A DNA stretch of 43,238 nucleotides from Burkholderia sp. Bp8992 (GTDB lineage: Bacteria > Pseudomonadota > Gammaproteobacteria > Burkholderiales > Burkholderiaceae): contig NZ_QTQI01000045.1 in NCBI RefSeq assembly GCF_003853705.1, positions 1-43,238 on the forward strand. The letters run 5' to 3'. Numbering within the stretch: the stretch's first letter is position 1; each line of letters begins with the position of its first letter. Positions 4,271 through 4,388 of this stretch are shown piece after piece. A program made the position numbers and the translations under genes. The notes beneath the pieces were generated by a model. That model made no database searches. It was not told where the DNA came from and worked only from the letters and a program-made list of their open reading frames with translations.

Positions 4271-4375
4271 TAAAAAAACCCGCCGTTGAACGGCGGGTCA
4301 AACAGCCTAATCGAAAAACGACAGGCACCCGCTCAGGGAGGAGAAGCGGGGAGTTGCACGCGAGGCGTGCCGCTC
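4271..4375 (-). ncRNA. Candidate small RNA with exposed anti-Shine-Dalgarno loop
   Basis: On the minus strand this roughly 105-nt stretch has the parts of an independent small RNA. A TATGAT -10 box (4388-4383) precedes a predicted start near 4375. Stem 1 is GCACGC/GCGTGC (4370-4356, perfect 6 bp, 3-nt loop). Stem 2 is CCCGCT/AGCGGG (4350-4328, perfect 6 bp) with the 11-nt loop TCTCCTCCCTG. An unpaired T-rich linker follows. The 3' hairpin ACCCGCCGTT/AACGGCGGGT (4298-4278) ends in seven T residues. The CCUCC in the loop matches the anti-Shine-Dalgarno core of 16S rRNA, so the RNA could mask ribosome-binding sites. Small RNAs with CCUCCUCCC-type loops are known in alphaproteobacteria, and I recall similar ones in Burkholderia cenocepacia. 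No coding potential was noticed in it. Boundaries are inferred. Confidence 0.68.
4278..4298 (-). terminator. Intrinsic terminator of the candidate small RNA
   Basis: ACCCGCCGTT and AACGGCGGGT form a perfect 10-bp inverted repeat with one central base, giving a stable stem of about 8 bp with a 5-nt loop. It is followed on the minus strand by seven consecutive T residues (4278-4272). On the plus strand no T tract follows, so its polarity points to a minus-strand transcript rather than to engB. Confidence 0.8.
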
Positions 4376-4382
4376 GATCGCT

Positions 4383-4388
4383 ATCATA
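4383..4388 (-). promoter_or_regulatory. -10 box of the candidate small RNA
   Basis: TATGAT on the minus strand, seven to eight bases upstream of the predicted start of the small RNA. The upstream region is T-rich (TGATTTTTGG) but has no clear TTGACA-like -35. The hemB promoter should lie in the same 4376-4457 interval on the opposite strand; a small imperfect hairpin (AGGG/CCCT around GTAAG/CTTAC, 4414-4439) is also there. Confidence 0.45.

Follow-up and report, generated by a model that had tools for sequence, protein, structure and literature searches.

A Burkholderia small RNA of the anti-hemB family (RF02837) and its relatives beside engB and polA

The analyzed stretch of Burkholderia sp. 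Bp8992 DNA (43,238 nt, referred to below as the window) contains a small RNA (sRNA) gene on its minus strand, located between the convergent engB gene and the divergent hemB gene (Table 1). A prediction made earlier from the sequence alone (the original prediction) had distinguished a transcript of about 105 nt at this site, and all of the minus-strand elements that it named are present, i.e. a TATGAT box, the stems GCACGC/GCGTGC and CCCGCU/AGCGGG, an 11-nt loop and a terminator with seven T residues. The stretch that it called a T-rich linker is also there, but it contains a third stem-loop (SL2, 4326-4305). Two statements on the surroundings required correction. The RNA had been described as antisense to the 3′ end of engB; its own 3′ end lies 65 nt from the engB stop codon, in convergent orientation and without overlap, so it would become antisense only with read-through. 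The locus had also been placed right beside ribosomal-protein genes, the nearest of which, rplQ (ORF 7936-8331, recognised by eye), is approximately 3.6 kb away. Inspection by eye of the nearby window ORFs revealed engB but no polA. An ordinary tRNA gene is located elsewhere in the window (41925-41997, minus strand).

Table 1. Features of the sRNA locus and its immediate neighbours, in window coordinates.
Feature	Position	Strand	Basis or remark
Full-length sRNA (anti-hemB / ncS04; probably Bc7)	4272..4376	-	105 nt; match to model R1, 54.8 bits
Rfam RF02837 core	4270..4352	-	85.6 bits (cut-off 49.5), E 6.2e-19, full length 1-81
5′ hairpin P0, GAG(CG)GCACGC-CUC-GCGUGC(AA)CUC, abutting SL1	4351..4375	-	outside the Rfam model
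P0 inner stem GCACGC/GCGTGC	4370-4365 with 4361-4356	-	read in the sequence
SL1, stem CCCGCU/AGCGGG	4328..4350 (4350-4345 with 4333-4328)	-	read in the sequence; RF02837 match
11-nt SL1 loop UCUCCUCCCUG (anti-Shine-Dalgarno loop)	4344-4334	-	read in the sequence
SL2 stem-loop	4305..4326	-	RF02837 match and folding
Intrinsic terminator	4299-4277 (with tail 4272..4299)	-	T7 at 4278-4272
TATGAT, −10-like box	4383..4388	-	aligns with TATCATA of the same-family loci L075 and L099
Decayed −35 region, GGAACCC (4421-4415) and GGTGATTTTT (4411-4402)	4402..4421	-	read by eye
engB (yihA) GTPase gene, convergent neighbour	3546..4205	+	PF01926, E 1.6e-18
hemB, divergent neighbour	4458..5456	+	PF00490, E 2.5e-139

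The RNA gene was confirmed as real and not a chance feature: its folding z-score is −4.88, and none of 200 shuffled sequences folded equally well. It is the Burkholderia member of the Rfam family RF02837 (anti-hemB). The original prediction offered it as a new candidate; the RNA itself is already known, since it is catalogued in Rfam and matches a transcript mapped in B. cenocepacia J2315. The latter, ncS04, is reported to be 105 nt long, with a transcription start site determined by dRNA-seq and a 3′ end determined by RACE and dRNA-seq (PMC5688073). This bears out the predicted size, as does the 105-nt match to our model R1; the start in the window strain is inferred, the length agreeing with the mapped one. 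In the same source ncS04 is among the Northern-blotted sRNAs, its binding by Hfq is stated with reference to other work, and its level is given as not significantly changed in seven conditions, including stationary phase and starvation (PMC5688073, Table 2). In another Burkholderia, the same RNA was listed among Rfam homologues by Khoo et al. (2012; PMC3521395), and a review lists Bc7 as an Hfq-copurified sRNA with hemB as its predicted target (PMC6321483). Judging by the names, Bc7, ncS04 and the “Burkholderia RNA 7” of RF02837 are probably one RNA.

A search of the open-licence literature found no paper using the term “RF02837”, and none treating anti-hemB together with sX13, ErsA, Spot 42, polA and engB (at least three terms). 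Within the same literature, no report was found of the class-wide spread, the polA-engB context, the sigma-E-type motif or the bridge to sX13 and ErsA described below, nor any description of the 5′ hairpin outside the Rfam model or of the C-rich terminator loop of most relatives.

Of 399 genomes from the order Burkholderiales, 264 have an RF02837 match at E ≤ 1e-7 (245 of them over the Rfam cut-off), representing 111 of 158 genera. No RF02837 match was reported for seven small genomes (1.2-2.1 Mb) of the window’s own family. With model R1, built from 50 sequences, and a threshold of E ≤ 1e-4, to be read with the roughness of its E-values in mind, matches appear in 130 of the 369 class genomes, of which 127 lie outside the order. 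When the best 17 loci from outside the order were scanned with Rfam, 10 exceeded the cut-off of RF02837 itself. Among the matches listed are contigs with titles such as Aromatoleum, Azoarcus, Azospira, Rhodocyclus, Ramlibacter, Caenimonas, Sulfuricella, Sulfurisoma and Hydrogenophilus. Three metagenome-assembled records titled Klebsiella pneumoniae or Bordetella parapertussis (L171, L185 and L203) also carry the RNA, although these titles may be wrong.

Other elements were encountered during the searches within Burkholderia. Matches to RF02837 of 64-66 nt and about 32-34 bits occur in many genomes of the genus. Four same-genus loci that were read (L051, L052, L055 and L069; e.g. G001:C1:890597-890660) contain an element of two hairpins and a terminator, in which one hairpin is formed by CCGUCGCC/GGGCGACGG closing around UAUCCUCGUA. 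L051 and L069 gave no Rfam match over cut-off, and elements of the L051 type are possibly an unnamed sRNA. Two further loci, L053 (G019:C19:19227-19321) and L054 (G012:C1:26825-26919), are identical to each other and RNA-like, each having CCUCCCUGA at two places as well as a terminator; they score 35.6 bits against RF02837, below its cut-off.

For the comparison of structures and upstream regions, 249 of 255 loci were placed (L040, L046, L144, L202, L206 and L228 were left out, and L051-L074 had been excluded beforehand). Clustering at 70% upstream identity gave 175 clusters comprising 232 of the 236 unique loci, with genomes of the order mixed with named contigs. The SL1 hairpin is identical in all 30 same-genus loci compared, against an average identity of 36% (an ungapped and thus low estimate) in the stretch from −140 to −80. 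The sequence CTCCCTGA is found within the SL1 loop in 174 of the 175 clusters. Conservation of the stems and the loop had been named as a check by the original prediction, which withstood it, the loop being retained well outside the genus.

Alignments of the family support the structure. RNAalifold applied to alignment A1 (50 of 96 kept sequences) gave 19 pairs, 16 of them with changes on both sides. In alignment A2 (105 rows), 93.5% of cells are paired compared with 67.7% after shuffling, all 19 pairs are changed on both sides, and covariation reaches 0.609 against 0.159 in shuffles; A2 was fitted to its structure, which favours that structure, and the slid and shuffled controls were far lower. 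SL2 corresponds to helix 3 of A2, with both-side changes in each of its seven pairs. A C-rich terminator loop (CCCC, TCCC or CTCC) occurs in 143 of the 175 clusters, the window and its near relatives not being among them.

The RNA begins with a further hairpin, P0, which is absent from the RNAalifold structure of A1 and from models R1 and R2. A hairpin of at least five pairs abuts the 5′ side of SL1 in 166 of the 175 clusters (31.5 ± 5.1 after shuffling, and 45 in a control stretch taken farther upstream), and 91 distinct stems could be distinguished among these hairpins. Outside the order it abuts SL1 in 44 of 54 placeable loci, compared with 8.2 after shuffling. The count of stems, rather than of pairs on an alignment, suggests that the 5′ hairpin is conserved. 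The test for an uninterrupted stem was failed by the window and by four relatives from its family (L030, L075, L099 and L153), in the case of the window because its stem is not continuous (GAG..CUC on the outer side, GCACGC/GCGUGC on the inner).

The genetic surroundings of the RNA differ between the order and the rest of the class. Among 105 loci of the order, the RNA has engB as a neighbour in 92, hemB in 80 and polA in none. In the 102 loci that could be placed, hemB is divergent in 77, and engB was found in 89, with convergent orientation in 76; for 10 of the other 13, which were listed, engB is on the same strand and upstream. Outside the order, 77 loci were read, one for each of 77 higher-scoring genomes among the 127 with a match. 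Here polA is adjacent in 46 loci, in 44 of them upstream and on the same strand, and engB is convergent and downstream in 51. At least one of the two genes, in any orientation, accompanies the RNA in 66 loci and both do so in 33, while eight loci have none of the sought neighbours within flanks of up to 1.5 kb. Such synteny provides independent support for the low-scoring R1 matches outside the order. Some genomes carry several copies of the polA-engB sRNA, i.e. four in tandem in each of two genomes (L433 and L411), two in L370, L391, L406, L410 and L426, and two weak extra copies in L422.

The family name suggests a cis-acting antisense regulator of hemB, and both the frequent divergent arrangement within the order and the prediction of hemB as a Bc7 target (PMC6321483) would agree with such a role. 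However, hemB is adjacent in none of the 77 loci outside the order, where the CTCCC loop is nevertheless retained in 75 and the promoter motif described below in 45, and the hemB gene of the window has no Shine-Dalgarno site evident by eye. We consider regulation of hemB in cis very unlikely. The name “anti-hemB, Burkholderia RNA 7” is a poor fit, since the RNA accompanies engB and polA outside the order and occurs far beyond Burkholderia.

Upstream of the RNA, a motif of the form GAAC[TC](T)-N13-18-TCNNA was identified in 124 of the 175 clusters, compared with 3.0 ± 1.8 in dinucleotide shuffles and two on the other strand. Its GAAC element is mostly situated at −54 to −49 from SL1. From the motif, the start is predicted to lie immediately ahead of the 5′ hairpin, approximately where the length of the B. 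cenocepacia transcript puts it. The 45 loci outside the order that contain it compare with 1.1 in shuffled sequences and one on the other strand. In its form the motif resembles promoters recognised by RpoE-type sigma factors. Of 30 genomes, 18 also have it in front of rpoH (two on the other strand and none inside the gene), and the SigE protein of Bordetella is reported to transcribe in vitro from E. coli rpoHP3 and from its own rpoH (fam) promoter (PMC3490749). RpoE itself is present in 19 of 20 and in 31 of 32 genomes of two sets; the sole exception in both, G271, has an sRNA without the motif, although a single genome proves nothing. A test for rpoE autoregulation was negative, with the motif upstream of rpoE in just two of 19 genomes. 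Genome-wide, the strict motif was not enriched in three genomes (3, 3 and 2 matches, compared with 5, 6 and 4 for the reversed control); of these eight matches, one lies upstream of rpoH (L301, in genome G285) and one is the sRNA’s own promoter (L308). Taken together, we regard a sigma-E type as quite probable for the ancestral promoter.

In Burkholderia the motif is present upstream of rpoH in all three genomes checked and is lacking at the sRNA. Read by eye, the sRNA of this genus has TATATGATA with a decayed −35 region, at the place of which two loci from the same family have GGAAACTTTT (L075) and AGAACCATTT (L099). A sigma-70 consensus scan at the window sRNA passed no promoter, the −10 box being good and the −35 poor. 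Ramlibacter sRNA loci contain TTGAAA and TTAAAT boxes. These comparisons, made by eye and not from a tree, suggest that the window’s lineage may have changed the sigma factor used, losing the −35 element and relying now on a sigma-70-like box. Such a box would fit the flat expression reported for ncS04.

The anti-Shine-Dalgarno sequence at the 3′ end of 16S rRNA is CCUCC, which pairs with AGGAGG. The SL1 loop has the same complementarity (a search for 16S rRNA with RF00177 gave no match in the G001 assembly). We infer that the window RNA is a trans-acting, Hfq-associated sRNA, in which P0, SL2 and the terminator would frame SL1, and whose single-stranded loop CUCCUCCCUGA would pair with Shine-Dalgarno sites of the AGGGAGGAG type and thereby block translation of particular mRNAs. 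CU-rich regions have likewise been proposed to cover ribosome-binding sites in Burkholderia double-hairpin RNAs (PMC5688073). The RNA probably acts in this way on a limited set of mRNAs.

In a search for targets, the pattern CAGGGAGGAG-N3-10-ATG was found at 19 sites in eight of 10 genomes; at L344 it falls in the sRNA gene, read on the opposite strand, and the reading frames opened at L342, L344, L345 and L352 run for only 25-30 codons. By eye, no gene is common to the target-motif sites outside the window’s genus, and no porin gene was seen among them. Within the genus, 25 of 61 genomes have 13 nt of complementarity ahead of a start codon (26 rows, two of which are one site), apparently at one gene. 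This best candidate, read in G001 and G018, encodes a predicted hydrolase (PF10118), and in G001 (L340, C20:5099-5119) its Shine-Dalgarno region, UCAGGGAGGAGAA, shows unbroken complementarity to 13 nt that span the SL1 loop and its edges. We treat the PF10118 gene as a weak candidate target.

Two other modes of action have to be weighed against this. The original prediction had the RNA blocking many mRNAs with strong ribosome-binding sites and, given its position near the ribosomal-protein locus, favoured a growth-control role, which would amount to a general growth brake. The central element of that prediction, the covering of ribosome-binding sites, stands as the best mechanism, and the loop does complement AGGAGG; moreover, overexpression of ncS27, a double-hairpin RNA related in kind, is reported to slow growth (PMC5688073). 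The growth-control framing is not supported. Outside the order the neighbours retained are engB and/or polA (66 of 77 loci), the ribosomal-protein genes of the window are about 3.6 kb away, ncS04 was not significantly changed in the seven conditions mentioned above, and complementarity over the full 13 nt ahead of a start codon is infrequent (25 of 61 genomes of the genus). We thus find a general growth brake distinctly improbable. Titration of a protein or of another sRNA, in place of pairing with mRNAs, has nothing specific in its favour, and the most conserved part of the RNA is precisely the loop complementary to ribosome-binding sites; we give this mode of action hardly any credence. Covering of the Shine-Dalgarno sites of particular mRNAs remains the preferred mechanism.

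The polA-engB site is known from sRNAs of other bacteria. ErsA is reported from the polA-engB intergenic region of Pseudomonas (PMC8575079) with a promoter dependent on sigma-22, a sigma factor of the RpoE type (PMC7565897; PMC3349714 is also among the sources for the site and the dependence), and it represses translation of algC together with Hfq (PMC8395346). In Xanthomonas, sX13 is encoded beside polA, and its C-rich loops are reported to act on mRNAs with G-rich motifs near their start codons (PMC3771888). The window sequence gave no match at E ≤ 10 to the models of ErsA (RF01719) or sX13 (RF02232), both with a cut-off of 50, and among 18 loci of the order ErsA matched once (E 0.37) and sX13 not at all; the link therefore depends on intermediates. 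RNAs matched by RF02837 were also matched by sX13 in four of 14 loci at E ≤ 0.5 (best L433, 48.3 bits, E 3.1e-6) and by ErsA in five (best L433 again, 37.1 bits, E 7.9e-4). In a second set of 20 loci, at E ≤ 0.05, sX13 matched three (best L412, 39.5 bits, E 4.6e-4) and ErsA none. None of the sX13 or ErsA matches to intermediates reaches the family cut-off. On these scores, kinship with ErsA and sX13 is likely but transitive.

Other families were compared as well. The alphaproteobacterial ar14 (RF02344, cut-off 58.8) gave 16.4 bits with the window and up to 40.5 bits with intermediates, and RF02278 (cut-off 50) gave 16.3 bits with the window (E 0.76 in a 351-base search). Rfam has no clan for RF02837, RF01719, RF02232 or RF02344. 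At L403:1169-1242, a match to the Burkholderia sRNA ncS037 (RF02868; 40.2 bits, E 0.0029, below cut-off) overlaps a polA-linked RNA. Spot 42 was tried as a sequence relative and dropped: it was the best hit of R1 and of R2 in the 8.1-kb E. coli polA-yihA stretch (11.9 and 14.7 bits), while two control stretches of the same chromosome (98 kb in all) gave 15.1, 15.2 and 25.9 bits. The 25.9-bit R2 site (L444:26748-26883) lies around the ends of bhsA and ldtC and is probably a terminator. Since control sites reach such scores, the E-values of R2, rough in any case, are too generous, and some of the low-scoring matches outside the order may be false. A search for RF00021 in the 369 class genomes, meant to show whether Spot 42 and the R1 RNA exclude each other, found it in none (the E. 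coli control was positive) and was thus uninformative.

The resemblance to ErsA and sX13 could also have arisen by convergence, with C-rich loops and a strong terminator evolving separately at a permissive polA-engB site. The authors of the sX13 study state that it has no sequence similarity to Spot 42 or alpha-r7 (PMC3771888), R2 gives up to 25.9 bits at E. coli sites elsewhere, and a locus of the order was matched by the Listeria LhrC model at E 0.039, so that weak matches may stem from C-rich loops held in common. On the other hand, two curated Rfam models match the same RNA over its full length and at the same site, and the promoter motif is of the kind reported for ErsA. Convergence is possible, in our view, but unlikely. 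Common descent, which we prefer by a narrow margin, would unite the polA-engB sRNAs (anti-hemB, ErsA, sX13 and many unnamed ones) in one superfamily. With similarly modest confidence, this superfamily may be ancient and span Beta- and Gammaproteobacteria, its ancestor being an envelope-stress RNA driven by sigma-E and carrying C-rich anti-Shine-Dalgarno loops; Burkholderia would have kept one C-rich loop and lost the sigma-E promoter here while keeping one at rpoH, with hemB in place of polA beside the RNA.

Our reading as a whole is that the window RNA belongs to RF02837 and blocks Shine-Dalgarno sites through its loop. It would descend from a family of sRNAs located beside engB, in many genomes outside the order between polA and engB, i.e. 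at the site of ErsA and sX13. Its ancestral promoter would have answered to sigma-E (RpoE, envelope stress), and loss of the −35 element would have left the window’s lineage with a sigma-70-like box. We assign this reading a probability of roughly 0.7. It suggests that the RNA began as an envelope-stress regulator and was later rewired in the lineage of the window. If the sigma-E reading is true, a large set of bacteria carries an envelope-stress sRNA that has escaped study, and the timing of its synthesis and its mode of action can be predicted from its promoter, loops and neighbours. The sX13 paper asked whether the polA loci of other bacteria encode sRNAs, and structurally related ones acting alike (PMC3771888); the 46 of 77 loci outside the order with polA beside the RNA bear on this question.

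Compared with known systems, the window RNA shares with the double-hairpin RNAs of RF02278 (Betaproteobacteria toxic small RNA) their occurrence in Burkholderia and CU-rich loops complementary to ribosome-binding sites (PMC5688073); those RNAs differ in their loci and in having two hairpins. The E. coli Spot 42 RNA (RF00021) is encoded in the arrangement polA > RNA > < yihA(engB), the same as that of many relatives outside the order, but shows no sequence kinship to model R2 above the E. coli background. With sX13 the family has in common the position beside polA, found among the relatives of the window RNA, and stem-loops with C-rich loops, whereas sX13 is described as having three such loops and acting without Hfq (PMC3771888) and the window RNA has one. 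ErsA occupies the site that is flanked by both engB and polA in 33 of the 77 loci outside the order, and most relatives also carry the sigma-E-type motif; in contrast, ErsA is reported to pair through a U-rich unstructured stretch (PMC8575079, PMC5819304) and not a CCUCC loop, and the window RNA has TATGAT and a decayed −35 region instead of the motif. From RF02837 itself the window RNA shows no departure in sequence family, structure or size, and it is the Rfam entry that falls short of the RNA, as its model omits the 5′ hairpin and its name ignores the members beyond Burkholderia.
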